Shown: in pieces, positions 1,454 through 46,395 of the stretch
How positions within the stretch are numbered: position 1 is the stretch's first letter
Layout of the letters: every line of letters starts with the position of its first letter
Origin: Deltaproteobacteria bacterium
Lineage (GTDB): Bacteria; Desulfobacterota; Syntrophia; Syntrophales; Smithellaceae
Assembly (NCBI GenBank): GCA_021372815.1
Contig: JAJFTS010000119.1
Span: 1 to 50,377, forward strand
Direction of reading: 5' to 3'
Length of the DNA stretch: 50,377 bases
Program-made: the position numbers and the translations under genes
Notes under the pieces: model-generated
What the model was told of the DNA's origin: nothing
What the model saw: only the letters and a program-made list of their open reading frames with translations
Database searches by the model: none

Positions 1454-2307
1454 TTCATTCTCCTCGCCTGCGCTCCGCCAATTATTTTTTCGGAACGCAA
1501 ATTTGCTTTTTCCTTAATGCAGGCGTCCCTCAATTCAACGGCCAACTCGCGTCCGGCGGACAGTTCCGGAGCGAAATTACGGATAAAGTCGATTTCATTA
1601 TCCGTGGGGCGCTGTGTTTCCGACAGGTCGGCGGCCACTTTCAAATCCCACGGGATGTCTTTTTTTACAGCTTCGAGTTTGACACCGGGATGAATCTGGG
1701 CAAGATATATCTCCTTGGTTACAGGATCGAACCGGAAAATGCCTTTGGTGCTGATCAATGCCGACGGACCCGACCCCTTGGGGAACAAGCCTGTTTTGTC
1801 CCGGCTGTCGCCTCCCTCGAGGTAACCGGGAGAGGTGAAATAATCCAGTTTATTGACGAACGTTCCGCCCCGCATGGTGAGGACAGTTCTTTTCGAATAG
1901 GCGATAAAATCAGCGGCACCGCCGGATCCCGGTAAACGTATAGTTGGTTTTTCATAGTCGCCGATTGCGGTGGTGTTGAGGTTCCCGTATTTATCCACTT
2001 GCCCCACTCCGAGAAAACAGACGTCAACAAAACCACGATAGGTAACGGTAAAGGCGGAAAAAAGATCCGTGGAAAAAGAAAATCCGCGACAGGAGTGTGC
2101 GTCGGCAATATTGTTCAGGGATAAAAGAGGACGGATATCCACAATGCCCGATTCCATCATCAGGGTTGCGTGCGGCGCGAACAACGCTTTCGCCAGGGCT
2201 CCCGCCGTCATGGGCACACCAACGCCCAGAACCACGTTTTCATAATCGTTAATTTCCCTGGCCACAGCAATAGCCAGCAGTTCATCCAAGGTATAGGGTT
2301 TACTCAT
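1450..2307 (-). CDS. CoA-transferase family I, beta subunit (glutaconate CoA-transferase B-like)
   Basis: The 285-residue second subunit of a heterodimeric or tetrameric CoA transferase, resembling GctB/IpdB. The region MMESGIVDIRP puts Glu52 where family I enzymes carry the glutamate that forms the acyl-glutamyl-CoA intermediate. Further on are FLGVGQVDKYGNLNTT and the glycine-rich PGSGGAADF loop, both typical of the family. It overlaps the alpha-subunit gene by 8 bases and the SDR gene by 4, so the three are translated from one message. The presumed role is to activate the imported acid using acetyl-CoA or another acyl-CoA as donor. IpdB of actinobacteria is a ring-cleaving hydrolase, but the glutamate here favours a true transferase. 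The acid itself is unknown. Confidence 0.88.
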   Translation of the reverse strand: MSKPYTLDELLAIAVAREINDYENVVLGVGVPMTAGALAKALFAPHATLMMESGIVDIRPLLSLNNIADAHSCRGFSFSTDLFSAFTVTYRGFVDVCFLGVGQVDKYGNLNTTAIGDYEKPTIRLPGSGGAADFIAYSKRTVLTMRGGTFVNKLDYFTSPGYLEGGDSRDKTGLFPKGSGPSALISTKGIFRFDPVTKEIYLAQIHPGVKLEAVKKDIPWDLKVAADLSETQRPTDNEIDFIRNFAPELSAGRELAVELRDACIKEKANLRSEKIIGGAQARRMK

Positions 2308-3349
2308 ATGTTTTCCCTCTTTCTTTCAATAACGTTTCCAGTTGCGGAAGGGTTACGCCCATGCTTCTCTCTTTACCGTCCTGATTCCAGTGGGAGGTAA
2401 AGGCCGACCCGTAATTGGCGGGAGCGGAATAAAAGGGCTTGGCCCGCAGTTCATCCAGCGCGGCGCTGCCGAATTTCCGGATATAGTGATCAATGTAAGC
2501 GGCGCGGTCCGGACAACTATAAACCCATTCGTCCATCCAGGCGGCGAGTCCGTCAGCCGTGGCCGCAGCAGAGGAAAACAGGCCATTATACATAAAATTA
2601 TCCACATTATAGTATCCCAGCACTTCCGTGGGATGGGCGCCCCAGGGCACCTCGATGACTGCGTTGACGCGATAGGCCGGAATGATTGTCAGATGAGGGC
2701 TTGATTCAATGATTTCGTGATCGACAATCTCCTCACAGGAGACAATGATTTTTTTGCTGGACAACGCCGCGGAAGCCACACTGCCCATCGCCCCCCAATA
2801 TTGCGCGTTGCCGTATATATCAGCCCGCTGAACATGGATGATACACACATCCGGCGTCGCCGCCGGCACCGTGACGATGTCCTTTCCCGTGTAGGGACAC
2901 TTGATCACCCGGAATTTGTTTTCGCCCATGAATCCCCGCTTCCGGAAGATATCCGTCACCATGACGCCTTCCAAAACCGGTAGAAAGGAAAAACCATGCA
3001 TGCCGGCTACCAGTCGCGCATTATATTCAAAGTTAGTATAATCTTCAATTTCGAGTGTTCCTGCATTCAGGGATCGCTCCACGGCGGAACCACCCTTCTT
3101 CCCGCCGGAACGCATGACATAGGTTGTAACCAGCCGATGAACACATCCGCCGGCGACAAGAACCTCAACATCAAAGATGCCGGATTGAGAATACAGGGTG
3201 AAGCCTTTTTTGCCTTGTCTGGTAATCTCATAAACAAGCTCGGCGCAGCTTCCGACGGTATAATTGCCAATCACCAGTTCGTCGTCGTCATGGACAAATT
3301 TTTCAACTGCTTCTTTGGCGCTCATGACTTTACCGTTTATTTCTCCCAT
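2300..3349 (-). CDS. CoA-transferase family I, alpha subunit (glutaconate CoA-transferase A-like)
   Basis: A 349-residue partner of the following beta subunit. It begins with a short segment typical of GctA/IpdA (MSAKEAVEKFVHDDDELVIG). It has the family core: FDVEVLVAGGCVHRL, then a CoA-binding half with CIIHVQRADIYGNAQYWG. Length is near the 320-350 usual for GctA-type subunits. The start ATG is preceded by GCGAGGAC. Upstream, the 208-base gap to the binding-protein gene contains two stem-loops (3392-3475 and 3499-3538), so the CoA-transferase part may be transcribed at a different level from the transporter part. Confidence 0.88.
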   Translation of the reverse strand: MGEINGKVMSAKEAVEKFVHDDDELVIGNYTVGSCAELVYEITRQGKKGFTLYSQSGIFDVEVLVAGGCVHRLVTTYVMRSGGKKGGSAVERSLNAGTLEIEDYTNFEYNARLVAGMHGFSFLPVLEGVMVTDIFRKRGFMGENKFRVIKCPYTGKDIVTVPAATPDVCIIHVQRADIYGNAQYWGAMGSVASAALSSKKIIVSCEEIVDHEIIESSPHLTIIPAYRVNAVIEVPWGAHPTEVLGYYNVDNFMYNGLFSSAAATADGLAAWMDEWVYSCPDRAAYIDHYIRKFGSAALDELRAKPFYSAPANYGSAFTSHWNQDGKERSMGVTLPQLETLLKERGKTYE

Positions 3350-10177: not shown

Positions 10178-12010
10178 ATGGCATCAAATTTTTTGTATTC
10201 CACCCGTGAGCACAAGTTTATTTTAAAAGAATGGCTCGACATGTCCAAGGTCTTTGAGGTTGGACGCTTCAAAGGAGGCTATACGGTTGACGATATCGAT
10301 TCCATCCTGGAAAACGCGATGAAAATAGCCAAGGAAGCAGTGGCGCCCACCAACGAAGACGGCGACACCATTCACGCCGTGTATAAGAATGGCAAGGTCA
10401 CCACCCCCGAATCTTTCAAGAAGCCTTACTGGACGGTTCAGGAAAACGGTCTCGGCTCCAGCAATGCCGATCGCAGTGACCCCAGTTCTCTGCCTTTGTG
10501 CCTGATGGGCGCGACCAATGAATACCTGGCCGCCGCCAATGCCGCATCCGGTCCTTACGTCATGGCTACTACCGGCGCATCCGGCCTGATTCGTGACTTC
10601 GGCAGCGAAAAAGTCAAGAACATCTTCCTGCCTAAAATGTTTTCCGGCCAATGGGCGGGCACGATGGACCTGACGGAACCCAACAGTGGTTCGGACGTGG
10701 GCGACCTCGTGACCAAGGCCACCCCCACCGGTGAACCGGGCATTTACAACATTGTCGGCACCAAATGCTTCATCACCGGCGGCGATCAGGACATCACCGA
10801 AAACATCATTCACCTGACGCTGGCCCGCATCGAGGGCTGTGCTCCGGGCACAAAAGGCATCTCCCTGTTCGTCGTTCCCAAATTCTGGCATACCGAAAAT
10901 GGCGAAAAAGGCGAGTTCAACGATGTAAACTGCGGCGGCGTCGAACACAAGCTGGGTCTCCGGGGATCGGCTACCAGCATTATTAATTTTGGCGAAGAAG
11001 GCAAGTGCCGCGGCTATCTGCTGGGCGAACCTCCCGTAGACGGCAAGGGCGCGGGAATGGCCCAGATGTTCAATATGATGAACGAAGAACGCACCGTCAC
11101 AGGGCTGGCTGCGCTGGCGGCCGCCACGGTTTCTTACAACAATGCGGCAATGTATGCCGCCGGGCGTATCCAGGGGCGTCAGATCACCAATCCCAAAGCA
11201 GGCCGTGTCCCCATTATCAATCATGAAGATGTGCGCCGCATGCTGATGTATCAAAAGTCCATCACCGAGGCCAGCCGGGCCATGATTGAGATGTCTTACT
11301 ATTGCATGGATATCGCGGAAAACACCGACGACGAAGCCGAACGAAAGCGCGCCAAGGCTTTTGTGGAGGTCAACATACCGATCGTCAAGGCCTGGTGTTC
11401 GGATCTGGCGTTCCTCAGCATCTCCGAGGCCATGCAATGTTACGGCGGTTATGGATTCTCCGAGGATTACCCGATCGCGCAGCAGCTTCGCGACAGCCGG
11501 ATCTACCCCATCTGGGAAGGCACGAACTTCATCCAGTCCATGGACCTCATCGGCCGCAAGTGGATGATGGCCGGAGGACAGGTTTTTGCTTTGTGGTTTG
11601 CGGAACTGGAAAAATTCGCGGCAGACAACAAAGACAATCAAGCTGTGGCCGCAGAAGTGGCTCTATTGGCTGAAGCGCTGGGCCAGTACAAGGAAATTCA
11701 AACAACAATGGCCGGCTACCTGGGCCAGGGCAAGTTCGGCATGATCGGTTTCTTTGCGACACGAATTCTTCACGCAACCGGCTACATTTACGGCGCCAAA
11801 CTGCTTTTGGAACACGCCCTCATCGCCCTGAAAAAGATTGACGCGATTGGCAAAGAGCATTTTGAATATCCATATTACGCGGGCAAAGTGGCTTCGGCTA
11901 AATTCTTCGCCCACAATATTCTTCCCAATGTCGGCATGATCCTGCGGGTCATCAAGGAAGGCGACAATTCGGTCATGGAAATCCCCGAAGCGTCCTACAT
12001 GCTGGAATAA
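10178..12010 (+). CDS. Large acyl-CoA dehydrogenase (about 610 residues, DmdC/FadE-like)
   Basis: A flavoprotein that should oxidise an acyl-CoA to the 2-enoyl-CoA and pass electrons to ETF. At 610 residues it is longer than the usual 380-residue enzymes. It has the extra N-terminal segment and C-terminal helical domain seen in DmdC-type and related dehydrogenases. The FAD/substrate loop TMDLTEPNSGSDVGDL lies near residue 165. The C-terminal region has CYGGYGFSEDYPIAQQLRD and then IYPIWEGTN, whose Glu is the probable catalytic base. AAGGAGA precedes the ATG. A good promoter is 54 bases upstream and a GC-rich hairpin follows the stop, so it is probably transcribed alone. The exact substrate cannot be assigned. 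Confidence 0.92.
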   Translation: MASNFLYSTREHKFILKEWLDMSKVFEVGRFKGGYTVDDIDSILENAMKIAKEAVAPTNEDGDTIHAVYKNGKVTTPESFKKPYWTVQENGLGSSNADRSDPSSLPLCLMGATNEYLAAANAASGPYVMATTGASGLIRDFGSEKVKNIFLPKMFSGQWAGTMDLTEPNSGSDVGDLVTKATPTGEPGIYNIVGTKCFITGGDQDITENIIHLTLARIEGCAPGTKGISLFVVPKFWHTENGEKGEFNDVNCGGVEHKLGLRGSATSIINFGEEGKCRGYLLGEPPVDGKGAGMAQMFNMMNEERTVTGLAALAAATVSYNNAAMYAAGRIQGRQITNPKAGRVPIINHEDVRRMLMYQKSITEASRAMIEMSYYCMDIAENTDDEAERKRAKAFVEVNIPIVKAWCSDLAFLSISEAMQCYGGYGFSEDYPIAQQLRDSRIYPIWEGTNFIQSMDLIGRKWMMAGGQVFALWFAELEKFAADNKDNQAVAAEVALLAEALGQYKEIQTTMAGYLGQGKFGMIGFFATRILHATGYIYGAKLLLEHALIALKKIDAIGKEHFEYPYYAGKVASAKFFAHNILPNVGMILRVIKEGDNSVMEIPEASYMLE

Positions 12011-28929: not shown

Positions 28930-29268
28930 ATTTTTCTTTTTCACCCCCTCTTTCGAGGGATATTAATTATTTAAAATACCTAAAGTTTTTCCTTGAAATA
29001 TTTTAGAAAAAGGCGTTAATAAAATTCCGTCCCACAAAATGCAGAGAGCGCCGAGTGGCACTTTTGATTCTGCATGTTTCATTAAAACAAAGTTTCATAA
29101 TTGTTAAGCAATAACTGATAAGTATGGATCTATTCCCATTTTCCGATAAACTCTGTAATAAATTGTAATATTATGATAAGAATCTTTTCAAGGTTAAATT
29201 TTATTCATTGTTATTTTTTATTTCAGTTGTAATTGTTATCAATAAAATCTCTTAATGTTAGAAATAAG

Positions 29269-31677
29269 ATGACGGTAATGAAAAAACAACCTAAAAAGCA
29301 ACTAACTGATTTAAAAAATAAACTATTCGAGTCAATACGATCTGGAAATGAGCAAACAAAAATAGATTTAATCGCAAAACAACTCATCGAAAATTACCCT
29401 CATGATCCATATGCATTTCAAGAACTAGCTTTTGTTGCTTTTAAAAAGCATAAAAAATATGCGGAAGCAGCACAGATAGCGGAACAAGGCTTAAAATATA
29501 ACCCCACAAATATAAGACTAAAGAAATTATTAGCTGAATCCTTGAGCCACTTAACTGGAGAGGAAAATCGTGCAGATAAACTTTTTAAAGAATTGGTTTC
29601 TGAATATAATGGCAAAGAAAAAAGAAAACTGGCATCAACATATGCTGATTTTTCGGTACGACGCGGAGATATAAAACAAGCTCAAGACATATACAAGATG
29701 CTCCTAAAGGAAAAACCGAATGATGCACTTGCACGAGTAGATCTAGCAAAATCATATCGTATCGATCATGATTATGAAGAATGTCTAAAATGCCTAACAA
29801 GTTATCCCCTACCTGAAAATATTCACTGGCTGATAGAAAAAACGCATTGTCACATTGATCTTGGACAGATTGATGAAGCAGAATCGTTAATTAATGAAAT
29901 TAAAAAAATTATTTCAAGTTTATCTCCTTTTACAAAAGCAAAGACTATTAAAAAAATTATTCCATTCGAGAAAGCTATAGATGCGGAAAAGGGCGACTGG
30001 AAAAAGACTATTTCCTGGTTAATAAAGGAAAAATACAACAAGGGAACCTCATCCATTTACAATGCTATAATTAATCGTCTAATAAAGAATGATGAGATTG
30101 ATGAAGGATTAACTTTTTTACTGAATTCTTTGTCAAATAATAAAGACTCTATTTCAATTATTTACATGATTGATAGAATCATGCAGAAAGGAAATGTGAC
30201 TAAAGAAAAGACGCAGGAAATAGTAAAAAAATGTTTAGAAATTGCACCAAATAATTGGATGGCATTAATGATTGCGGCCCAAGCAAACCAAGAATCTTCA
30301 CCGGAGCAAGCATTAGCCTTGTGGAATGAAGCGTGGCAATTAGTGACTGAGAAATCTGTAGATACATTAAACAAAAAGATTATTAAAAATGCAGCCATTG
30401 ACAATGCTACTTTTTTAAGAAAGCTAGAAAAATATCAAGAAGCTTTACTCATTTTAGATCAAGTTAAAACTAACCAAGATATAAATACTTGGGCGATTGA
30501 TTTGGAACGCGCGATAAATCTTGTGCGACTGGGTAGTTATTCAGAGGCTTATGACATATTATTAAATGTGAATAAAATTCAACCAAATAATCATGTGGTT
30601 CTTGACCAATTAGGTGTATGTCTCCGCTTGATAGGCAGACATGAGGAAGCAATAAAAATATACGAACATAAAGTTTCTTTATTTGAAAATGATAGATCTG
30701 GTTGGCAAGGACTTGGTATTACTCAATATCAATTAGGTCAACATGACGAAGCATTAAAGTCTTTTGAAAGAATTTTAAAGATTGATCCGACAGATATTGA
30801 TGCGAAATTACTCATTGCTGAAATTTATGTTTATAAAAAAGAATTAGACAAAGCAAAAGAATTTTTGTCGGGAATAGACCCTGCTTTCGTATTACAGAAA
30901 GGATCCAAAATTGATATTGAAAGTAAGCTGGCTAATATTGAACGACACCAAATTGAACAACTTGCTGAAATAGAGGAAGCGAAAAAACTTAGTTATTTAG
31001 GTGTAATGGCAACTGCTACCGCGCATGAATTGAATCAACCAATAGGTATTATCCGTGCAACTACAGATGCCGCGTTGAATGATTTCAATGATGGTTATTT
31101 AGAAACCAATGATATAAAACCAATATTGCAACGTATATTTAATCAAACTGAAAGATTGGCCGCGATTATTGAAAATTTTAGAAGATTTGCGAGAGGTGAT
31201 AGAACACACAGGGAAAAAGTTGACCTTAATAAATTAGTTGAAAAAACTATTGAAGGATTTGAAGAACAATTTAAGCATCGCAACATAAAACTTAGAATTA
31301 ATTTACATGATAAAAAGCCGCTGCCAGTAGCATGGGCAAATTATTTTCAATTAGAAGAAGTTCTAATTAATTTACTTACCAATGCAAGAGATGCAGTTGA
31401 AGGGAAAAAGGATGCATACGTTTTTATAAATGTTGGTAGAATGCAAAATGGAAGTCCTGTGTTTTCGGTTAGTGATAATGGACCTGGCTTACCCGAGGAA
31501 TATCGAAAAAATATGTTCGTTCCATTTGTCAGCACAAAATCCACAGAAAAAGGAACGGGCTTAGGTTTGTTTATATCTCGCAGAATTGTAAATAGTCTTG
31601 GTGGACAACTTCGTTATATCGATAATGTGAAAGGTGGGGCACGATTTATTGTAACATTACCACCTTTGAAAGGATGA
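29269..31677 (+). CDS. Cytosolic TPR-repeat sensor histidine kinase
   Basis: About 802 residues from the ATG at 29269. An ATG three codons later or a TTG at 29233 is possible, and no start has a strong ribosome site. No membrane helix is visible. Residues 1-560 are made of many tetratricopeptide repeats, for example GRHEEAIKIYEHKVSLF, GQHDEALKSFERILKIDP and KKYAEAAQIAEQGLKYNP. A short coiled coil (IERHQIEQLAEIEEAKKL) leads to the kinase core. The phospho-accepting His586 lies in TATAHELNQPIGIIRA. The ATPase boxes are NLLTNARDAVEG, SDNGPGLP and GTGLGLFISRR. Codon use is much more AT-rich than flanking genes. It lies 6 bases before a receiver gene, its probable partner. The TPR part likely senses a protein or peptide. 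Confidence 0.9.
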   Translation: MTVMKKQPKKQLTDLKNKLFESIRSGNEQTKIDLIAKQLIENYPHDPYAFQELAFVAFKKHKKYAEAAQIAEQGLKYNPTNIRLKKLLAESLSHLTGEENRADKLFKELVSEYNGKEKRKLASTYADFSVRRGDIKQAQDIYKMLLKEKPNDALARVDLAKSYRIDHDYEECLKCLTSYPLPENIHWLIEKTHCHIDLGQIDEAESLINEIKKIISSLSPFTKAKTIKKIIPFEKAIDAEKGDWKKTISWLIKEKYNKGTSSIYNAIINRLIKNDEIDEGLTFLLNSLSNNKDSISIIYMIDRIMQKGNVTKEKTQEIVKKCLEIAPNNWMALMIAAQANQESSPEQALALWNEAWQLVTEKSVDTLNKKIIKNAAIDNATFLRKLEKYQEALLILDQVKTNQDINTWAIDLERAINLVRLGSYSEAYDILLNVNKIQPNNHVVLDQLGVCLRLIGRHEEAIKIYEHKVSLFENDRSGWQGLGITQYQLGQHDEALKSFERILKIDPTDIDAKLLIAEIYVYKKELDKAKEFLSGIDPAFVLQKGSKIDIESKLANIERHQIEQLAEIEEAKKLSYLGVMATATAHELNQPIGIIRATTDAALNDFNDGYLETNDIKPILQRIFNQTERLAAIIENFRRFARGDRTHREKVDLNKLVEKTIEGFEEQFKHRNIKLRINLHDKKPLPVAWANYFQLEEVLINLLTNARDAVEGKKDAYVFINVGRMQNGSPVFSVSDNGPGLPEEYRKNMFVPFVSTKSTEKGTGLGLFISRRIVNSLGGQLRYIDNVKGGARFIVTLPPLKG

Positions 31678-31683
31678 GGTTCA

Positions 31684-32121
31684 TTGGACAGAAAATTTAA
31701 AATTTTGATTGTTGATGATGAAAAAGAAATATTATCGACTTATAAAGATTTTTTTACGAAGCGTGGCTTTATAGTTGATACAGCGCATAACGGTTTAGAA
31801 GGTCTTGAAAAACTACAGAAAGATGAATTTGACGTCGCAATCGTTGACATAAAAATGCCTAAAATGAATGGCACGGAAATGATAGAAGAGGCTATTAAAA
31901 AAGGGATTGACACTGAAATGATAATTTTAACGGGTCATGGCGGGAAAGATGATGCAATTAGGCTAATAAATATGGGTGGGGTAAAGGCTTGGTTTGAAAA
32001 GCATAATATAAAAATGAATAAATTGTTGGATAAGGTTACTGAAGCAATTGAAGTCATATCATTAGATGAAATGCGTAAAATATTGTCATCAATTCCTGAT
32101 GTCAAGTTGAGAAAAGAATGA
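31684..32121 (+). CDS. Single-domain-type response regulator partner of the TPR kinase
   Basis: 145 residues from a TTG with GGATGAGG upstream. The receiver fold is complete: acidic pair in LIVDDEKEIL, phosphorylated Asp55 in VAIVDIKMPKMNG, switch Thr in MIILTGHGG, and a Lys in AWFEKHNIK where KP is usual. Instead of a DNA-binding output there is only a helical tail of about 30 residues (LLDKVTEAIEVISLDEMRK). The stop overlaps the start of the PIN-protein gene (ATGA), so both are translationally coupled. The short tail could bind the kinase or the PIN protein. Confidence 0.88.
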   Translation: MDRKFKILIVDDEKEILSTYKDFFTKRGFIVDTAHNGLEGLEKLQKDEFDVAIVDIKMPKMNGTEMIEEAIKKGIDTEMIILTGHGGKDDAIRLINMGGVKAWFEKHNIKMNKLLDKVTEAIEVISLDEMRKILSSIPDVKLRKE

Positions 32122-32606
32122 TAAAATCTGAAGACAAAAGATATTATTTCGACGCCGCAGCTTTTTTAAAATTCTATAGAGATGAAACTGGTTCAATAAA
32201 AATTCGACGATTGGTCGCAAGTGCATCTCAACAAATTCTTATTTCATCAGTTACAATATTAGAATTCGTTAATGTTATATTAAAATATCACAGAAAGGGG
32301 CATTTTAAGAAAAAAACAACTAGAAAAATTATTCAACGATTTAGACGGGATGTATCAATAAACTCAAAAACTAGACCATTTACTGTGGTTGAATCATCTA
32401 ATACATTACTCATTACGGCAAAAATCATTTTGTTACAATATGCGTATTATAATAATATTGAATCAATGGATGCATTGCATTTAGCTGTTATTGAAGATCT
32501 TAAATCTAAGTTTATGAATATTCTTTTCGTTACTTCAGATCATGGGTTAATTTCTGTTTGCAAAAAGTCAAATATTGATTTTTGTGATCCTGAGACTGAT
32601 ATTTAG
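32118..32606 (+). CDS. PIN-domain protein (VapC-like ribonuclease), third gene of a two-component operon
   Basis: 162 residues. The four acidic PIN positions are visible: Asp in YYFDAAAFLKFY, Glu in SVTILEFVNVIL, Asp in ESMDALHLAVIED, and Asp in FVTSDHGLIS. This is the catalytic set of VapC-type Mg-dependent RNases. There is no VapB-type antitoxin gene next to it. Instead it is coupled by an ATGA overlap to the receiver gene and kinase. A phosphorylation-controlled RNase is one reading, and an ancestral toxin taken over by a signalling operon is another. AT-rich like the two upstream genes. Confidence 0.82.
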   Translation: MIKSEDKRYYFDAAAFLKFYRDETGSIKIRRLVASASQQILISSVTILEFVNVILKYHRKGHFKKKTTRKIIQRFRRDVSINSKTRPFTVVESSNTLLITAKIILLQYAYYNNIESMDALHLAVIEDLKSKFMNILFVTSDHGLISVCKKSNIDFCDPETDI

Positions 32607-32646
32607 GAATTCAGGAGAACAAGAATCTTCGGAATTCGGGGAACAC

Positions 32647-32707
32647 AACACTTAATAAATGAAAAAACCGGATCGCCCAATCAAGTTGGGCAATGACAGA
32701 GAAGGAC
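32647..32707 (+). repeat. Hairpin repeat family 2, copy a
   Basis: It begins AACACTTAATAAATG, like copies at 33686 and 39913. The hairpin is TCGCCCAA (32673-32680), loop TCAAG, TTGGGCAA (32686-32693), followed by TGACAGAGAAGGA. One arm mismatch relative to the perfect palindrome. Confidence 0.8.
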
Positions 32708-32885: not shown

Positions 32886-32930
32886 GGAACTGGATTGCCC
32901 AATCAAGTTGGGCAATGATAGAAAAGACAT
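32886..32930 (+). repeat. Hairpin repeat family 2, copy b
   Basis: Hairpin TTGCCCAA (32895-32902), loop TCAAG, TTGGGCAA (32908-32915), then TGATAGAAAAGACAT. It lies between the decayed and intact higBA, in the same position relative to the promoter as copy a. Confidence 0.8.
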
Positions 32931-32952
32931 TATTAGAATCAAATCTTTGCTC

Positions 32953-32981
32953 TTGACAAATGTCACGAGTCACGTTACACA
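32953..32981 (+). promoter_or_regulatory. higBA promoter with probable HigA operator
   Basis: TTGACA (32953-32958), a 17-base spacer, and TACACA (32976-32981). An imperfect palindrome, TGTCACGAGTCACGTTACA, runs from the spacer into the -10 (32961-32979) with 14 of 18 symmetric bases matching. It is where an autorepressing HigA dimer would be expected. Confidence 0.6.
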
Positions 32982-32987
32982 ATACGC

Positions 32988-33269
32988 ATGATCAAGACGT
33001 TTGCCGACAAACATACGCGTGATTTGTTCATTACCGGTAAATCAAAGAAGTTTCAGCCTGATATTCTTAAAAGAGCTATCAGGCGTCTTGAATACATAGA
33101 TTTAGCAATGTGCATCGATGATTTAAAAGTTCCGCCAAGCAATCATCTGCATGCGCTGAAGGATGACAGGGCGGGTCAGTATTCAATATCCGTTAATGAC
33201 CAATGGAGAATATGTTTCAGGTTTATTGACGGCGATGCATACGATGTTGAAATAACAGATTATCATTAA
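32988..33269 (+). CDS. higB: HigB-type toxin (RelE superfamily mRNA interferase)
   Basis: 93 residues. It starts MIKTFADKHTRDLFI and ends FRFIDGDAYDVEITDYH, both hallmarks of HigB. ALKDDRAGQYSISVNDQWRI contains the basic and aromatic residues of the RelE/HigB active site. It should cut mRNA on the ribosome when free of HigA. The toxin gene precedes the antitoxin, the usual higBA order. A decayed partner copy lies directly upstream. Family assignment is strong, activity in this host is not shown. Confidence 0.93.
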   Translation: MIKTFADKHTRDLFITGKSKKFQPDILKRAIRRLEYIDLAMCIDDLKVPPSNHLHALKDDRAGQYSISVNDQWRICFRFIDGDAYDVEITDYH

Positions 33270-33282
33270 AAGAGGTAAAAAT

Positions 33283-33597
33283 ATGAGCATAAAATATGAT
33301 GGAAAAAGAAAAGTAAAGCCAACGCATCCGGGCGAAATACTGAAGGAAGATTTTATGCCTGATTATAATCTGAATGTAGCGAGTCTGGCCAAAGCGCTAG
33401 GCGTATCGCGTCAGACGGTTAATGAATTGTTAAGGGAGAGCCGCGCGCTGACACCGGTTATGGCGCTGCGCCTGAGCCGTTTGTTCGGTAATACGGCTGA
33501 ATTCTGGTTAAACGCACAGCGCGCCCATGATCTCTGGGAGGCGCAGCAGGCGCATCAGTCTGAAATAAAGAAAATCCATCCGTTGAAAGCGGCGTAA
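33283..33597 (+). CDS. higA: HigA-type antitoxin (XRE helix-turn-helix)
   Basis: 104 residues, 13 bases after higB, with AAAGAGG upstream. It contains KPTHPGEILKEDFMP, then the helix-turn-helix LNVASLAKALGVSRQTVNEL, and RLSRLFGNTAEFWLNAQRAHDLW, which is diagnostic of HigA. It should bind HigB and repress the higBA promoter. Confidence 0.94.
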   Translation: MSIKYDGKRKVKPTHPGEILKEDFMPDYNLNVASLAKALGVSRQTVNELLRESRALTPVMALRLSRLFGNTAEFWLNAQRAHDLWEAQQAHQSEIKKIHPLKAA

Positions 33598-33685
33598 AAG
33601 CAAATCAGGAAACGCCATTCTGGTTTTCGTTTTTCAATCCTCCCTCGGTCCCTCCCATCAAGGGCAGAAAGATCAATAGTAACAT

Positions 33686-33744
33686 AACACTTAATTAACA
33701 AAAAACTGGTTTGCCCAATTAAGTTGGGCAATGACAGAGCAGGA
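33686..33744 (+). repeat. Hairpin repeat family 2, copy c
   Basis: AACACTTAATTAAC start, hairpin TTGCCCAA (33711-33718), loop TTAAG, TTGGGCAA (33724-33731), then TGACAGAGCAGGA. It lies after higA and before the cytochrome operon promoter, so copies of this family flank the toxin locus. Confidence 0.85.
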
Positions 33745-33788
33745 AGCAGTTCCGTCATCAACCAACTTTCTTCAAATTATATCTTTAC

Positions 33789-33817
33789 TTGACATACCTT
33801 GCATAAATCCTTACAAT
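33789..33817 (+). promoter_or_regulatory. Sigma-70 promoter of the porin-cytochrome operon
   Basis: TTGACA (33789-33794), a 17-base spacer, and TACAAT (33812-33817), nearly consensus. It leaves a leader of about 125 bases before the first gene. Confidence 0.75.
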
Positions 33818-33949: not shown

Positions 33950-35026
33950 ATGAAGAAGAACCACCGCTGTTCGGTCGTAAGAACAATCACCTCCCTTATT
34001 ATCGCCATAGTCTGGCTGGCATTTGCGACTCACGCTGGTGCAGCAGGGATGCAGAAAGCCTATATTTCCGCCCAGGACGGCTCGAAGCTTTATATTGTGG
34101 ACCTGTCCAAGAACATCATTGTCAAGACAATCGATATCTTTACCCCGACACCGCTGGAGAAGGCCCTGCCGCCGAACATAAACGATGTCCTCGCCGTAGG
34201 CAAAAAAATCTTCATGACGGTTCCCGGTCCTGAAATATCGCCTTCGGGGGTCAATGTGATCAAAGTCATTGACAGCCGGACCGACAGTGTCATTGCGACG
34301 CTGAAAACGGACATGACCCCTTCAGGACTGCTCGAGCATAACGGGAAAGTCTACGTGGTCAATCGTTACGGAAGCACTATTCAGGAAATCGATCCGGAAA
34401 CCCTTCGGATCACGAGAACCATACCGTTCCCCGCGCCGAAATCCACAGCCATGAACCCGCCTCTCTTCATGGAAATTGCCAACGGTAAAATCTATCTCCC
34501 CTTTCCCGGCGGCATTTCACGCCCCGGCGGCATCCAGATTCTCGATTTGAAAACGGGCGCGGTCAAGGATTTCATCGATTTCGTTCCCATCAGCAACTAT
34601 GGCCCGTTAGCCATTAAGAAGGTGGGGGAAGACAAGATATACCTGGGAGGCGCCAACAACGTGGCCGTTTTGAATACGAATACGGATAAAATCACCAAGA
34701 TTATATCCATATCGACAAAGGACCCGTATGTGGAGTCTTTCGCCTTTTACAACAACAAGATATACACGGCCAATGGCGTGAGCACGGTGAGCGTGATTGA
34801 TACCCGGAACGATACGTTTATCAAAGAGATCGACATTGGCTTTCACCCCTATGCTTTTCACCTGAAGGCCGGCATCGTTGCCACGGAAAATGAGGTCTAC
34901 GTAGCCGACGCGGGGCGAGGTGTGAAGATCATCGATGTGGCAGCGGACAGGTTGAGCACAACCCTGGCGACGGAAGAGCCCATCGGGGCTATAGCCATCA
35001 TTGGCGATAAGCAGGTTGTCAAGTAA
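33950..35026 (+). CDS. Secreted YncE/YVTN-type beta-propeller protein
   Basis: 358 residues from the ATG at 33950, after TTGGAGG. A TTG 12 bases upstream is not needed. The signal peptide runs to about residue 32 (FATHAGAAG). The mature part is repeats of about 45 residues with the YVTN-style core, for example GSKLYIVDLSKNIIVKTIDI, NVIKVIDSRTDSVIATLKTD and STVSVIDTRNDTFIKEIDIG, predicting a seven-bladed propeller. It is the first gene of the electron-conduit operon, 10 bases before the decaheme cytochrome. It may scaffold the conduit or act as an accessory periplasmic protein. No heme motif is present. Confidence 0.85.
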   Translation: MKKNHRCSVVRTITSLIIAIVWLAFATHAGAAGMQKAYISAQDGSKLYIVDLSKNIIVKTIDIFTPTPLEKALPPNINDVLAVGKKIFMTVPGPEISPSGVNVIKVIDSRTDSVIATLKTDMTPSGLLEHNGKVYVVNRYGSTIQEIDPETLRITRTIPFPAPKSTAMNPPLFMEIANGKIYLPFPGGISRPGGIQILDLKTGAVKDFIDFVPISNYGPLAIKKVGEDKIYLGGANNVAVLNTNTDKITKIISISTKDPYVESFAFYNNKIYTANGVSTVSVIDTRNDTFIKEIDIGFHPYAFHLKAGIVATENEVYVADAGRGVKIIDVAADRLSTTLATEEPIGAIAIIGDKQVVK

Positions 35027-35036
35027 AGGGATATCC

Positions 35037-35951
35037 ATGATGAGAAAGTTCCTGTGCTTTTTTACAGTTGTTTTGATCATTATCTTCCTGACCTTCGTCA
35101 TCTTAAGCGCCGCCGAGAATGATAAAATAAACTACGTCGGGACCAATACCTGCCGTTTATGTCACGAACCCCAGACCCAGTCCCTGATCAGGAGTCTGCA
35201 TTGGAAGAAGGGAATCAAGAACTCTCCTCTCTCCGATAAAGGATGCGAAACATGTCACGGCCCGGGAGCGACTCATGTGCGGGCAGGCGGTGGCGCCAAA
35301 AAGGATTTGGTAACCTTCACAAGATCTGAGCGGCCCGAGGACAAATCGCGTGTCTGTCTGAACTGTCATGAAAATTCACCGTCCATATCTTCCTGGGATG
35401 CAAGCCTCCACAAGAAAAACGATGTGTCCTGTGAAGATTGCCACACCATTCACACCAATAGCCGCCTCAATCTCAAAAACACCCAGCCGGCCATGTGCAC
35501 CTCCTGCCACAAGGAGGTGAGAAGTCAACTAGCCAGGCAATCCCACCACCCCGTGGCCGAGGGAAAAGTCAAATGCACCGATTGCCATACGACTCATGGA
35601 GGTTTCGGCAAACACATGCTTAATGCCGATTCCATCCCGGATCTTTGTTACACGTGTCATGCGGAAAAGAAAGGGCCTTATGCTTTTGAGCATCCGCCGG
35701 TGGCCGAGAACTGCGGCACCTGCCATCAGGTACACGGGAGTAACCACGGCAATCTGCTTGACAGTAAAGTGCCCCAGCTTTGCGAGAGCTGCCACAACAT
35801 CGGTGCGGGGCACACTTCACGGGCTTACACGCAGCAACACGGTTTTTCGGGATTGGCGACGGCAAACAAGAATAAATTCTTTGCCCGGGGATGTCTCAAC
35901 TGCCACGGCAATATCCATGGCAGCAACAGAGATCCTTCCTTTCTCCGATAG
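35037..35951 (+). CDS. Periplasmic decaheme c-type cytochrome (MtrA/DmsE family)
   Basis: 304 residues from the first of two adjacent ATGs at 35037, after AAAGGGA. The N-terminal hydrophobic segment exports or anchors the protein. Ten CxxCH heme-binding motifs are present (CRLCH, CETCH, CLNCH, CEDCH, CTSCH, CTDCH, CYTCH, CGTCH, CESCH, CLNCH). Ten hemes, the size and the neighbouring barrel gene fit the MtrA/DmsE family. In the known model it sits inside the outer-membrane barrel and carries electrons across. It lies 10 bases before the barrel gene. Confidence 0.95.
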   Translation: MMRKFLCFFTVVLIIIFLTFVILSAAENDKINYVGTNTCRLCHEPQTQSLIRSLHWKKGIKNSPLSDKGCETCHGPGATHVRAGGGAKKDLVTFTRSERPEDKSRVCLNCHENSPSISSWDASLHKKNDVSCEDCHTIHTNSRLNLKNTQPAMCTSCHKEVRSQLARQSHHPVAEGKVKCTDCHTTHGGFGKHMLNADSIPDLCYTCHAEKKGPYAFEHPPVAENCGTCHQVHGSNHGNLLDSKVPQLCESCHNIGAGHTSRAYTQQHGFSGLATANKNKFFARGCLNCHGNIHGSNRDPSFLR

Positions 35952-35961
35952 GTGAGCGGCC

Positions 35962-37986
35962 ATGAAATCAAAACTAGCTATTTTCGTCCTGATCGCCGGT
36001 CTCGCCGGGAGTCTCACCGCCGCTTCTTCTGCCTCCTCCCAGGAACCTGAGAAGGAACCATCCCAGGAGCCTGTAATGATGGGCGGGGCGGGCATAGAGG
36101 GACGGCTATATGATGTAAACGGTAACGAAGCGAAATTTCATGAATACTCAGACATCAAATCCGGAGGCGCTTTCGTTAACGCTGATGTTACCTATGTTTC
36201 TCCAAATCACTTTATATGGCTCCAGGTCACCGACCCCGGTTATGACACTCAGCGTTACCGGTTGGAAACAGGGTCTTTCGGAAAATATAAATTCTGGTTC
36301 GACTATAATGAAATTATTCACAATATCACATCCGATGCAAAGACATTCTACTCCGGCGCGGGTACAAACCAACTCACGGGCACTCCGAATACGGAACCCG
36401 CCACATGGCGGGGCGATTTCGATTACTCCACAAAGAGAAAGCGTATCGATGCGGGAATAAAATTCGATCTGGCGCAGCCGTTTTTCTTCAACATCAGTTT
36501 TCCCTATGAGAAAAAAGAAGGCATCAAACCGGCGGGTGTCTCTACAAGCAGTTCCCGGGATGCTGCCCTGGAACTGCCGGAACCGGTCGATTACCGGACA
36601 AGCGGTCTCAGGGTGGACGCCGGATATTCCCTGAAACCCTTTCTTGCATCACTCAGTTACTCCTACGGTGAATTCAGGAATGATGCGCACGATCTGCTTT
36701 ACGACGTTCCCGATGGCTGGACGCCCGGACCGTTATCCCTTCCGCCGGACAGTGAATTTTACAAATTCAATTTCAAAGGGAGTGCCAAGCTCCCCTGGGA
36801 CAGCAAGTTCAATATCAATATCAGCGATGAGAAGACGAAGTCCGATACGTCGAGCTTTACCGATTTCAAGGGCAAGGTTGATACGAGAATTTATGACTTC
36901 ATGGCCTCCACCTACCCTTTCCGCTTCCTCGAAGGAAGAATCTATTACAAGTACTATGAACGGGACAATACATCGACCGGCAGTACGCTCATCAACAGCG
37001 TCCTGGTGCCGACACGCCCCCTTTCTTACGAAATAAACACGTATGGAGCCGAAGCCGGCTTCAGGCTGCCGGCGAAGCTTCATCTGAATGCAGGGTATAA
37101 ATATACCGATACGGAAAGAAGCATCCGCCATGAAACGGACCCCGCCGCAGTTCTGCCGCATAACGAGGACCATATCTTCTTCACGGAACTGAAATGGACC
37201 GGCCTCGATTTTCTGTCGGCCAGACTGGCTTATGAAGGAATGAACCGGAAAGCCGACTACCGGACGGACGCGAGCGAGGACGCGCTGAACCAGCAGTTCG
37301 CATACGCGGCACAGAAGAGGGATACCTTCAAGGCAACCGTCGATCTCTTCCCAATCAATGCATTGAATATGAGTTTTGAGTATCGGTTCAGGAGATCCAA
37401 CTACGACGAAACGATTTTCGGCTATACGGCCGATACAAGAAACGCCGCCGGCTTTACCCTTGATTATTCTTTCCGGAAACTGGCGCGCTTCTTCGGATAC
37501 CTCGACCTGGAAAAGAGGGAGCTGTGGCAACGCGCCCTTCTCGGATCGGATGGATGGGTGTCGAAACAGGATGAAAAAACTTATGCCTGCGGAATCAAGA
37601 CGGACGTCTATGCAATCCCCCAAAAGCTGACCTTCACCCTCCAGTACGATTACCTGAAATCGGACGGGTTCAACGACTTCGATTTCACGAGCGGCGTCCT
37701 GAGCGCCAGCGGCATACCTGACGGCCTTCCCGTCGACATACCGGATTGGGATGATTACACGAAGTCCTCCTTTACCCTCACGGCTGTCTATAACTGGTCG
37801 GAAGCCATCCTGCTGAAAGGCGGATATACTTATGCCCGGTATGATTATACCGACGACCAGTTGAAACATTACCGGTACTACGCCGGCGGGGACGGTTCAA
37901 GCCAGGGGTACCTCACCGGCGCTTACAATGACACATCCTACGAAGCCCATATCGCATTCCTTTCTCTGGTGTACCGGTTCCGCTGA
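35962..37986 (+). CDS. MtrB/PioB-family outer-membrane beta-barrel
   Basis: 674 residues with signal peptide MKSKLAIFVLIAGLAGSLTA. It is made of many alternating strands with charged turns and ends in IAFLSLVYRFR. The family pattern is seen in GIEGRLYDVNGNEAKFHEYSDI at the N-terminus, in repeated YxYxRYDYTD-type strands, and in the overall 26-28-strand size. It should hold the decaheme cytochrome as a sheath. There is no N-terminal CxxC as in Shewanella MtrB. It follows the decaheme gene by 10 bases. Confidence 0.9.
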   Translation: MKSKLAIFVLIAGLAGSLTAASSASSQEPEKEPSQEPVMMGGAGIEGRLYDVNGNEAKFHEYSDIKSGGAFVNADVTYVSPNHFIWLQVTDPGYDTQRYRLETGSFGKYKFWFDYNEIIHNITSDAKTFYSGAGTNQLTGTPNTEPATWRGDFDYSTKRKRIDAGIKFDLAQPFFFNISFPYEKKEGIKPAGVSTSSSRDAALELPEPVDYRTSGLRVDAGYSLKPFLASLSYSYGEFRNDAHDLLYDVPDGWTPGPLSLPPDSEFYKFNFKGSAKLPWDSKFNINISDEKTKSDTSSFTDFKGKVDTRIYDFMASTYPFRFLEGRIYYKYYERDNTSTGSTLINSVLVPTRPLSYEINTYGAEAGFRLPAKLHLNAGYKYTDTERSIRHETDPAAVLPHNEDHIFFTELKWTGLDFLSARLAYEGMNRKADYRTDASEDALNQQFAYAAQKRDTFKATVDLFPINALNMSFEYRFRRSNYDETIFGYTADTRNAAGFTLDYSFRKLARFFGYLDLEKRELWQRALLGSDGWVSKQDEKTYACGIKTDVYAIPQKLTFTLQYDYLKSDGFNDFDFTSGVLSASGIPDGLPVDIPDWDDYTKSSFTLTAVYNWSEAILLKGGYTYARYDYTDDQLKHYRYYAGGDGSSQGYLTGAYNDTSYEAHIAFLSLVYRFR

Positions 37987-38095
37987 TGCGGAGCATCGGC
38001 CGCGGGGCCGCGATCATATCGAACAGGCATGAACAATTATTTTGGAGAGGTGAACCAAGCAACATAAACGGCAGCAAAGTACCAAGGAGGGATTT

Positions 38096-39898
38096 ATGAA
38101 ACCCAGACATTTACTTGTTCTCTTATGGTTGGCGGGCGTCATTGCCACTGGCTGCAGCGGAGGCGGCTCGGACGCCAACGTGGAAACGACGCAGCCGGGC
38201 GATGAGTTTCCCACACTCAATACGGAATCGCAAGTCTGCGCGGGGTGTCATTCGAAGAACGTAGCAGCCGTTTATCTCGATGCGACGGAAACGCCCGTAG
38301 CCGGCTCTCCGACAATCATTCAGGAGTATGCGCGCTCGGTCCACAATACCGAAGTCTTCGCAACTTGCGCCCAGTGCCATAAACCCGCCACAGGTCACCC
38401 CAATCCTACGACGGCGGATGTCAATCCCGATGCGACCGGAACGTGCCTGGACTGCCATTCATTTCTCGCTCTTCCCCACCTGCAGGATAATCCCGCCACC
38501 TTCGATGCTCTTGCCCCCGCCCAGTTTGTCGATCTGGCGCTTACCGGCTACGACACCGGCGCAAAAGGAGGATGCAGAAGCTGCCACAATCCTCACGACA
38601 CAACATCCCGGATCGCCCTGTTTAAAGACTACGTGAATTCTTCCGGACACGGTGACACCCAGGGAGAAGCATGGATTCACTACCGCTGGAAGGGAACCAA
38701 CAGGACGGCATGTCAAAGATGCCATACGACCAGCGGATTTATCTCGCAGGTTACCGGGGGAACGGGCATCGTTGCCTTTGATACGGCGGACAATACGAAA
38801 CAGACGTTGTATTGTAACGGCTGCCATGAGAATTACAGCTATAAGGTGAGGAGCGCGAGCGCGGTCAACGCCGTATACCAAAGCGGGACGTCCACTGATC
38901 CCATTTACGGAACCTTCAGTGACGCTTCAGACCCGAACCCCGTCATCGATCCGGTCACCGGCTCCCAGACAGCAGCCAATACATTCCCGAATATCGGCAA
39001 GTCGAATCTTTGCCTGAACTGCCACTCAGCCAGAACGATCGGCGACAACATCAAAAAAACGGCGATCAACGCCGCATATGATTTCAAGAATCTCGGTTTC
39101 ATCAATTCCCATTATCTCACAGGAGGAGCCATTGTGTATGCGGTAGGCGGGTATGAATTCGCGGGCCAGACGTATGCCAATCCGTCCTATTATGCACACA
39201 ATCAGATAGGCACCAGTCTGCAGCCCGCGACGGGAACGGGCGGCCCCTGCGTCGGATGCCACATGACGCCGGCAAGACATACCTTCAAGGGTTGGACGAA
39301 AGATTCAGCGACGGAAAAGTTGACGGCCATTGTCAGCCGTGCCTGTATCACATGCCATTCGGAAATAACCGCCGAGGGAATGAACGAGGAAAATGAACGG
39401 TTCCAAGCAGCACTGGCCGCACTCGAAGCACAACTCGGCATGACAGGCTTCTATTTCTCTCCGAACAACCCGTACTTTTTCACGGCGCCATATGATCCGA
39501 CATACATCGAGCCTACAGACGCCTGCCCGACGAATAACCTTGCGGTCTTGAACTGGCAGACCGGCGGCACCGTCGTTCGAACATGGAATACCACTACAAA
39601 GAAGTGCGTCATTTCTGTTGGTGTTTCCGGCACGGATGGTACGGGTGAGAAGAACATGGGTGCAGCGTACAACCTAAATCTCCTCATCCATGATCCGGGC
39701 GCCTATACCCACAACCGGCTGTATGCAAAGCGTCTGATCTGGGATTCTATCGACTGGGCGGATGACGAAACGATGAACAACAGCGTCATAGCAACGCTAG
39801 ATGCCTTAGTCACGGCGGGCAAGTTGACTTCGGCCCAGAGGGATAGCGTCGTTGCTTATTATACCCCGAGTTCGGGGCCTCCGCCGGCAAGGCCTTAA
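38096..39898 (+). CDS. Surface-type nine-heme c-type cytochrome lipoprotein
   Basis: 600 residues. The lipoprotein signal ends VIATGCSGGG (Cys20). Nine CxxCH motifs are present (CAGCH, CAQCH, CLDCH, CRSCH, CQRCH, CNGCH, CLNCH, CVGCH, CITCH), all in the first 430 residues. Distal His residues such as HNTEVFATC and GHGDTQGEAW may be ligands. The last 170 residues lack hemes (YFFTAPYDPTYIEPTDAC). By position it is the outer-surface electron-transfer partner of the conduit (OmcA/MtrC or Geobacter-type role), but the fold is not assigned. The 109-base gap from the barrel gene contains AGGAGG before the ATG. The final residues are proline-rich (PSSGPPPARP). Confidence 0.88.
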   Translation: MKPRHLLVLLWLAGVIATGCSGGGSDANVETTQPGDEFPTLNTESQVCAGCHSKNVAAVYLDATETPVAGSPTIIQEYARSVHNTEVFATCAQCHKPATGHPNPTTADVNPDATGTCLDCHSFLALPHLQDNPATFDALAPAQFVDLALTGYDTGAKGGCRSCHNPHDTTSRIALFKDYVNSSGHGDTQGEAWIHYRWKGTNRTACQRCHTTSGFISQVTGGTGIVAFDTADNTKQTLYCNGCHENYSYKVRSASAVNAVYQSGTSTDPIYGTFSDASDPNPVIDPVTGSQTAANTFPNIGKSNLCLNCHSARTIGDNIKKTAINAAYDFKNLGFINSHYLTGGAIVYAVGGYEFAGQTYANPSYYAHNQIGTSLQPATGTGGPCVGCHMTPARHTFKGWTKDSATEKLTAIVSRACITCHSEITAEGMNEENERFQAALAALEAQLGMTGFYFSPNNPYFFTAPYDPTYIEPTDACPTNNLAVLNWQTGGTVVRTWNTTTKKCVISVGVSGTDGTGEKNMGAAYNLNLLIHDPGAYTHNRLYAKRLIWDSIDWADDETMNNSVIATLDALVTAGKLTSAQRDSVVAYYTPSSGPPPARP

Positions 39899-39912
39899 GA
39901 ATACGGGCACAT

Positions 39913-39971
39913 AACACTTAATTAACGGAAAAACCGGATTGTCCAATCAGTTTGGACAATGGCAGAGCAGG
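39913..39971 (+). repeat. Hairpin repeat family 2, copy d
   Basis: AACACTTAATTAAC start, hairpin TTGTCCAA (39939-39946), loop TCAGT, TTGGACAA (39952-39959), then TGGCAGAGCAGGA. Relative to the other copies both arms have changed together, keeping the pairing. It sits 14 bases after the cytochrome lipoprotein stop. Confidence 0.85.
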
Positions 39972-40095
39972 AATCCGTCTTTTTAAGCGACCAACTTTCT
40001 TCTTGATTATTGAACGATACTAAAATAAACAACATAAATAATTCTTTTAAAGGTATGCGTACCATGGCACTTCGTGCCTGGTATAATTTGACTTA

Positions 40096-44507: not shown

Positions 44508-44832
44508 TTGTATGTTCGATAACTTTCAAATTTATATGCTTTTTCAACAGCCCACCCAAAAAACCTTTCTATATAGATAGCCTATTTTTCGAAAAATTGA
44601 CAAATCCTCTAAATATTATTTTATTAAATTCCAATTTGTATTAAAATAAGAAAAAAACATTACGGCATACCGTAAGCAGACAGAGAATAAGTTTTACTTT
44701 AAATATTTTTATTAACAATTTCAAAATTCTGGAACAGGAATTTTAGTCTAATAATAAAAATGAAAACCTGCATAAAATACGTCAAGAGTTTAATGAGTCT
44801 TTATCAATTCATTATTAAAAGGACGGATGTTT
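44508..44832. other. AT-rich intergenic stretch without a recognised gene
   Basis: About 325 bases. It contains a TTGACA at 44597-44602 with only a weak -10 (TTTATT) 17 bases on, which may be the promoter of the delta-60-repeat gene. No RNA gene or hairpin stands out. Confidence 0.6.
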
Positions 44833-46395
44833 ATGAAAAAATTAAACGATTTAATCGGGTTATTATTTTCCCTTATAATGATCATGCTGTTTTTTGCCGG
44901 TTGCGGCGGTGGTGGCGGTGGCGGCAGCGCAGCCATCCTTGTTTCTATCTCCGTCACGCCAGCTAATCAGAGCATTATCATCAACGACACACAACAGTTC
45001 ACCGCAACAGGAACCTACTCGGACAGCACCCAGAAAGATATAACAACAGCAGTTACATGGACTTCTTCAGATACAGGCGTAGCTGAAATCAGCACGACAG
45101 GAATCGCCATACCAGCTGATTTTGGTTCTACCACCATCACTGCTACCTCAGGAAGTATTTCGGGAAGTACCACCCTCACAGTGGTTGGCCCCCCCGGAAG
45201 CCTTGATACAACCTTTGGCACAGACGGTATTGTCACCACACCCGTTGGAAGCGGCGATGACATTGCCAATGCTCTTGGCATCCAGTCTGACGGAAAAATT
45301 GTGGTCGCAGGAACCGCCTACAACGGCAGCGACTATGATTTTGCGGCTGTACGATATAATTCAGACGGAAGTCGTGATTCAACTTTTGACACAGACGGCA
45401 TTGTCACCACACCCATTGGCAGCAGTGATGATTCTGCCAACGCCCTCGGCATCCAGTCTGACGGAAAGATTGTGATCGCAGGAAGCACCTATAATGGCAG
45501 CGACTATGATTTTGCCGTTGTCCGGTATAATTCAAACGGAACCCTTGATACAACCTTCGGCACAGGCGGCATTGTCACCACACCCATCGGCAGCAGTGAT
45601 GATTCTGCCTATGCCCTCGGTATCCAGTCCGACGGAAAGATTGTAGTCGCAGGATACACTTATAATGGCAGCGACTATGATTTTGCCGTTGTAAGATATA
45701 ATTCTGATGGAAGCCTTGATTCAACCTTTGACACAGACGGCATTGTCACCACACTCATTGGGAGCACTTATGATCTTCCCAATGCCCTGGGCATCCAGTC
45801 CGACGGAAAGATTGTGGTCGCAGGAAGCACCTTTAATGGCAGTAACGATGATTTTGCCGTTGTCCGCTATTATTCAAACGGAACCCTTGATGCAACTTTT
45901 GGCACAGGCGGCATTGTCACCACATCCATTGGAAGCAGTGATGACATTGCCCATGCCCTGGGCATCCAGCAGTCTGACGGAAAGATTGTGATCGCAGGAA
46001 GCACCTTTAATGGCAGCAAATATAATTTTGCAGTTGTCCGGTGCAATTCAAACGGAACCCTTGATACAACCTTTGGCACAGGCGGCATTGTCACCACATC
46101 CATTGGAAGCAGTGATGACATTGCCTATGCCCTGAGCATCCAGTCCGACGGAAAGATTGTGGCAGCAGGATACACTTATAATGGCAGCGACTATGATTTT
46201 GCGATTGCAAGGTACAATTTAAACGGAACCCTTGATACAACCTTCGGCACAGGCGGCACTGTCACCACACCCATTGGAAGTGGTGATGATATGGCCTATG
46301 CCCTCGGCATCCAGTCCGACGGAAAGATTGTGGCGGCAGGAAGCACTTATTATGGCAGCATCAATAATTTCGCAGTTGTCAGGTATTGGCCATAG
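44833..46395 (+). CDS. Lipoprotein with Big-2-like domain and seven delta-60 repeats
   Basis: 520 residues from the ATG at 44833, nine bases after AAGGA. A start two codons upstream is too close to it. The N-terminal lipoprotein signal ends FAGCGGGGGGGS. A bacterial Ig-like domain follows (VSISVTPANQ, QQFTATGTYS and WTSSDTGVAEI). Then come seven 57-residue repeats of the delta-60 kind, each with LDTTFGTGGIVTTPIGS and IQSDGKIVVAG followed by DFAVVRYN. Such repeats form propeller-like surface modules. The DNA repeats are highly similar at a 171-base period, and repeat 5 has one extra Gln codon. It probably acts as a surface adhesin or binding protein. Confidence 0.9.
   Translation: MKKLNDLIGLLFSLIMIMLFFAGCGGGGGGGSAAILVSISVTPANQSIIINDTQQFTATGTYSDSTQKDITTAVTWTSSDTGVAEISTTGIAIPADFGSTTITATSGSISGSTTLTVVGPPGSLDTTFGTDGIVTTPVGSGDDIANALGIQSDGKIVVAGTAYNGSDYDFAAVRYNSDGSRDSTFDTDGIVTTPIGSSDDSANALGIQSDGKIVIAGSTYNGSDYDFAVVRYNSNGTLDTTFGTGGIVTTPIGSSDDSAYALGIQSDGKIVVAGYTYNGSDYDFAVVRYNSDGSLDSTFDTDGIVTTLIGSTYDLPNALGIQSDGKIVVAGSTFNGSNDDFAVVRYYSNGTLDATFGTGGIVTTSIGSSDDIAHALGIQQSDGKIVIAGSTFNGSKYNFAVVRCNSNGTLDTTFGTGGIVTTSIGSSDDIAYALSIQSDGKIVAAGYTYNGSDYDFAIARYNLNGTLDTTFGTGGTVTTPIGSGDDMAYALGIQSDGKIVAAGSTYYGSINNFAVVRYWP

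Follow-up and report, generated by a model that had tools for sequence, protein, structure and literature searches.

A predicted MtrAB-type outer-membrane electron conduit with a nine-heme surface lipoprotein and an accessory propeller in a Smithellaceae genome

The contig JAJFTS010000119.1 (positions 1 to 50,377 of the forward strand; hereinafter the window) belongs to GenBank assembly GCA_021372815.1, a Deltaproteobacteria bacterium placed in the Smithellaceae (Desulfobacterota, Syntrophales), and codes at 33950–39898 for four plus-strand open reading frames with successive gaps of 10, 10 and 109 bp. The first (33950..35026) specifies an exported β-propeller protein of 358 amino acids (aa) that matches PF16819 and TIGR02276, has a signal peptide by inspection and lacks CXXCH motifs. 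It is followed by a 304-aa MtrA/DmsE-family periplasmic decaheme cytochrome (35037..35951; TIGR03508) with ten CXXCH motifs, a 674-aa MtrB/PioB-family outer-membrane β-barrel (35962..37986; PF11854) with none, and a 600-aa surface-type lipoprotein cytochrome (38096..39898) with nine CXXCH motifs and a lipobox cysteine, C20, which we call cyt9. A sigma-70-like promoter candidate, TTGACA-17-TACAAT (33789..33817, plus strand), precedes them, agreeing with the consensus at 11 of 12 bases; while this is a consensus match only, just 0.5% of sequences simulated from the 352-bp intergenic region with a first-order Markov model did as well. In a scan for terminator-like sites, none was listed for any of the intergenic gaps of the operon, including that of 109 bp. 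A preliminary description of this DNA had proposed such a four-gene operon, and its gaps, families, heme counts (0, 10, 0 and 9) and near-consensus promoter are right in every detail open to checking.

The decaheme cytochrome scores 250.2 bits against TIGR03508, above the curated cut-off of 192.2, and matches chain A of 6R2Q, which we take to be the MtrCAB structure of Shewanella baltica, with an E-value of 1.5e-56. Each of the ten CXXCH histidines of the window protein aligns with a histidine of that chain, and so do ten, and only ten, of its remaining histidines, as would be expected if all ten hemes were bis-histidine ligated; we infer that the latter ten provide the axial heme ligands. The barrel reaches 255.5 bits against PF11854 over residues 53–673 (gathering cut-off 23) and matches chain B of the same structure with an E-value of 3.4e-12. 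The matches of both proteins to the core chains lie far beyond chance and bear out the earlier suggestion of a porin-cytochrome conduit through the outer membrane.

The fourth protein departs from this template. Its lipobox cysteine and nine CXXCH motifs are fully conserved across nine aligned relatives, and library profile searches returned generic multiheme matches and nothing more specific. No match to TIGR03507, the OmcA/MtrC model, was found for cyt9 at E-values up to 1 or, at 1e-5, for the alignment of ten family members. By these profiles cyt9 is not MtrC-like and lies outside the MtrC/OmcA model; it is best classified as a member of an uncatalogued Desulfobacterota lipoprotein family, which TIGR03507 sets apart from MtrC/OmcA. 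Of the four proteins described earlier, the MtrA–MtrB core and the lipoprotein stand, but the latter is not to be read as an MtrC.

The family profile of cyt9 does show a weak likeness to the nitrite reductase NrfA (best E-value 6e-7). Together with the score of MtrA to the DmsE family model, this could be taken to mean that electrons pass from MtrA and the barrel to a surface enzyme, in the way that DmsEF supply DmsAB, and that cyt9 itself is the reductase of a soluble substrate. We consider such an extracellular reductase unlikely: the operon has no molybdoenzyme or other reductase gene, and the likeness to NrfA spans CXXCH-bearing stretches and may be of compositional origin.

The propeller protein, which the preliminary description had correctly set outside the classic MtrCAB set, scores 64 bits against PF16819 (DUF5074) and 63 bits against TIGR02276 (YVTN repeats). 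An AlphaFold model built from three sequences (pLDDT 81) is all β from residue 36, and Foldseek returned 1l0q, a YVTN propeller, as its best match, with YncE and BtuG among the others. BtuG is a B12-binding surface propeller that caps the BtuB barrel. While such matches indicate the fold class of the modeled protein rather than its function, the conserved gene neighborhood discussed below and the structural likeness to barrel-partnering propellers lead us to guess that the exported propeller may have a role in assembly or docking, either at the barrel itself or at its periplasmic opening.

The gene content, families, heme motifs, conserved histidines, lipobox and relatives' gene order can be read directly, and we propose that the operon probably codes for an MtrAB-type outer-membrane electron conduit in which cyt9 takes the place of MtrC and the propeller serves as an accessory. 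The formation of such a complex and its localization would follow the known template: MtrA, with its ten bis-histidine hemes in a chain, would lie inside the MtrB barrel and carry electrons across the outer membrane, while cyt9, anchored at the outer face, would receive electrons from MtrA and hand them to an extracellular acceptor, filling the position of MtrC without belonging to its family. Judged by its sequences, the conduit is genuine and has solid support. Four observations nevertheless weigh against this interpretation. First, the barrel scores 184.2 bits against TIGR03509, under the curated cut-off of 240.05, so that it classifies as a divergent MtrB/PioB member by Pfam that falls below the stricter NCBI subfamily line. 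Second, a single-sequence structure model of cyt9 has a pLDDT of 34, and neither its fold nor its contact with MtrA is predictable from it. Third, no NapC/CymA quinol dehydrogenase scores above the PF03264 cut-off in the host metagenome-assembled genome (3.26 Mb, 91% complete). Fourth, that genome is split into 329 contigs with an estimated contamination of 4.5%; the presence of a Smithellaceae propeller on the contig argues that it truly belongs to this family.

Compared with Shewanella MtrCAB (6R2Q), the window operon shares the ten-CXXCH MtrA with ten further conserved histidines, the MtrB-family barrel, a surface-type multiheme lipoprotein (by a predicted lipobox) and the organization as a single operon. 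It differs in the nine-heme surface protein without a TIGR03507 match, in the gene order propeller-A-B-cyt9, in the lack of a detectable CymA and in the barrel, which has a single cysteine (543) and therefore no N-terminal CXXC. Since its surface cytochrome fails the MtrC/OmcA model, the operon is by its sequences an MtrAB-type conduit and not an MtrCAB set—a known machine that differs in its surface cytochrome and in having an additional propeller, rather than a new one.

The components are unevenly distributed. MtrB was detected in 10 of 51 genomes of the family at an E-value of 0.001 (9 of them above the cut-off), in 3 of 17 genomes of the host genus, and in 26 of 395 genomes of a phylum-wide sample at 1e-8; MtrA was found in 9 of the 51 family genomes. 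The cyt9 gene is absent from all 59 other relatives searched, and plasmids yielded no match. Relatives of cyt9 were recovered from 35 of the 395 phylum genomes at an E-value of 0.001, a list whose weak end probably includes general multiheme similarity. The operon is thus rare and patchy and, as most relatives are without a conduit, it is no general syntrophy trait. While the Smithellaceae placement bears out the earlier description of the host as a probable syntroph, it does not carry over to the operon as a hallmark of that lifestyle: absence from syntrophic relatives had been named in advance as counting against the proposal, and for the operon as a whole this is largely what we observe.

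The closest counterpart in gene order comes from another family. Genome G247 (family f74; locus L089) has mtrA-mtrB-cyt9 in the window's order, with identities of 55%, 50% and 41%, and its MtrB is the sister of the window protein; the propeller is present in the window operon only, with no match in G247 at an E-value of 1e-10. Elsewhere, a ten-heme cyt9 relative lies immediately upstream of mtrAB (G262), a split form stands beside mtrAB (G346), and a cyt9 gene lies about 2.5 kb from an mtrB (G391). In three further genomes (G099, G248, G294), cyt9 relatives directly follow a gene for a porin-like protein of about 400 aa and one for an 8- or 10-heme cytochrome. These porin-like proteins have no Pfam or NCBIfam match, and we term them Pcc-like by size, signal peptide, aromatic C-terminus and gene order only. 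The window operon in this respect recalls Pcc clusters of the OmbB-OmaB-OmcB type (PMC4245776), as relatives of its surface cytochrome adjoin Pcc-like porin loci elsewhere, but it differs from them in having a 674-aa PF11854 barrel instead of a porin of about 400 aa and a TIGR03508 MtrA as the inner cytochrome.

Among other Smithellaceae we did not find the same operon, but a second kind of MtrAB operon, which occurs in several genera. In two genomes of the host genus (G009 and G014; loci L039 and L038) and in G025 and G026, mtrA and mtrB precede a multiheme/Fe-S segment and a gene for an NrfD-type membrane protein (PF03916); contig permitting, a monoheme cytochrome and ResB/CcsA-like genes recognized by inspection lie farther downstream. 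Such an operon would apparently constitute a self-contained quinone-to-surface chain. The versions in G009 and G014 share mtrA (46–48% identity by BLASTP) and mtrB (34%) with the window, but have the NrfD-type module, no nearby surface lipoprotein cytochrome, and MtrAB proteins of another clade.

The propeller shows the opposite affinity. Homologues with 56–57% identity were found only in the Smithellaceae genus g5, beside mtrAB, and the 395 phylum genomes contain no other at an E-value of 1e-10. In G071 (record JANYAF010000201) and G063, with the genus g5 loci L068 and L069, the propeller gene is divergent from the adjoining mtrAB, which is followed by a triheme cytochrome gene. These loci thus share with the window a homologous propeller next to mtrAB, but differ in the divergent arrangement, the lack of a nine-heme gene, the extra triheme cytochrome and an MtrAB of the other clade. 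A scan of the family genomes recovered the propeller in the host and G035 (record JAUYFM010000049) only; in the latter, it and mtrAB lie at facing ends of contigs and are presumably adjacent. As G071 and G063 were found through a search near mtrB, this count of neighborhoods is not fully independent; the scan of named genomes, which is independent, yielded two unambiguous relatives, each from the host's own family.

In the MtrB tree, the window protein and that of G247 form a pair (support 100/100) that joins two f28 genomes at 98/95, while other Smithellaceae fall in a separate clade (96/98), which also includes G268. The MtrA tree recovers the same four-member group (99/97). As the window's MtrAB groups with the mtrAB-cyt9 of another family and not with other Smithellaceae MtrABs, horizontal acquisition of mtrAB in the host lineage is likely. 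The simplest reading of these sequence relationships is that mtrAB-cyt9 came from another desulfobacterotan and then acquired its propeller partner from the Smithellaceae pool; an ancient duplication followed by many losses is a possible alternative to such a transfer. The GC content of the operon (0.51–0.55) is the same as that of most window genes; hence, composition offers no sign of transfer.

The host is an uncultured relative of Smithella, a degrader of fatty acids. Members of the Smithellaceae break down fatty acids in methanogenic settings, and their electron disposal is usually ascribed to hydrogen or formate transfer. In the window, fatty-acid-type genes code for an acyl-CoA dehydrogenase (10178–12010), a CoA-transferase (2300–3349) and a short-chain dehydrogenase (692–1453). 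Most likely, the conduit would let electrons released by fatty-acid oxidation leave the cell whenever minerals, humics or a partner cell can accept them. A more specific version holds that the conduit is dedicated to direct interspecies electron transfer, with a methanogen as the recipient while fatty acids are oxidized syntrophically. The family-level placement and the above genes agree with this, as does a metatranscriptome study in which 53% of the Desulfobacterota and Spirochaetota species that degrade fatty acids reportedly expressed multiheme cytochromes; however, in the same study nearly all such Desulfobacterota, including Smithellaceae, expressed formate generation (PMC7382037). As MtrB is also confined to a minority of the sampled genus and family genomes, we regard this specific role as doubtful: from sequence, a partner cell is indistinguishable from a mineral, humic or soluble acceptor, and direct interspecies transfer is one possible option.

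The host genome also holds candidate periplasmic carriers for such a route. A 12-heme cytochrome with c7-like repeats (L157, contig C12) adjoins CcsA- and ResB-like genes, which we recognized by inspection as cytochrome maturation genes. On contig C315 (L071, 3393–9945), two TAT-signal FAD_binding_2 flavoproteins each adjoin the gene of a multiheme cytochrome, one with 4 hemes and the other with 6; these pairs are likely periplasmic respiratory reductases, and their cytochromes and the 12-heme protein are the predicted candidates. That no outward CymA-type donor was found above the cut-off in this 91% complete genome might instead favor inward flow, with Fe(II), a cathode or a partner as the electron donor, in the manner of the homologues PioAB and MtoAB, which work or are proposed to work inward. 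We deem this very improbable: the iron oxidizers with MtrAB homologues cited in that context are without MtrC, whereas the window operon has a surface cytochrome (PMC8805035). Outward flow through the MtrAB-type conduit remains our preferred interpretation.

In 2025 mtrCAB was reported as new to Desulfobacterota, mainly in Desulfuromonadia and with mtrC often away from mtrAB (PMC12133095); an MtrAB core with exchangeable surface cytochromes has already been proposed (Baker et al., PMC8805035), and Pcc surface cytochromes co-evolve poorly with their porins (PMC4245776). A limited search found no open-access paper on a Smithellaceae MtrAB conduit or on a propeller with MtrA. We tentatively propose, with somewhat less than even confidence, that surface cytochromes are exchangeable between two unrelated wire types, with cyt9 proteins capping both MtrAB and Pcc-like porins, and that the Smithellaceae-specific propeller is a dedicated MtrAB component. 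If the cyt9 family is indeed common to both kinds of loci, the proposed modularity of such wires becomes testable across systems. The occurrence of this apparently complete conduit in one lineage and of a different MtrAB operon in its sisters likewise provides specific genes for testing direct electron disposal.

An RNA regulator of the operon was considered and rejected: the leader (z −1.1) and the mtrB-cyt9 gap (z +0.35) fold no better than shuffles, and an Rfam scan gave a tRNA as its sole match and no RNA regulator at the operon.

The operon is bracketed by copies of a palindromic repeat of up to about 95 nt. The upstream copy (33682..33773, plus strand; stem TTGCCCAA/TTGGGCAA) is 80% identical to the downstream one (39909..40002, plus strand; stem TTGTCCAA/TTGGACAA), which begins about 10 bp past the cyt9 stop and shows a compensatory change in the stem. 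Two more copies lie at 32642–32706 and 32888–32981, and the host genome has others on contigs C116, C209 and C170. The core of the repeat is short and palindromic, and inspection by eye revealed no core sites arranged in an attC-like manner; we therefore interpret it as dispersed and REP-like, and reject an integron cassette array as the carrier of the operon. The copies flank both the conduit operon and a HigB-like toxin with its helix-turn-helix antitoxin (32988–33597). Just upstream of the operon, a block at 29233–32606, coding for a TPR-histidine kinase, a response regulator and a PIN-domain protein, has a GC content of 0.28–0.33 against about 0.50 around it and is probably of foreign origin. 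Further downstream, 44827–46395 codes for a lipoprotein-like protein that combines one Big_2 domain with seven DUF5122 propeller repeats.

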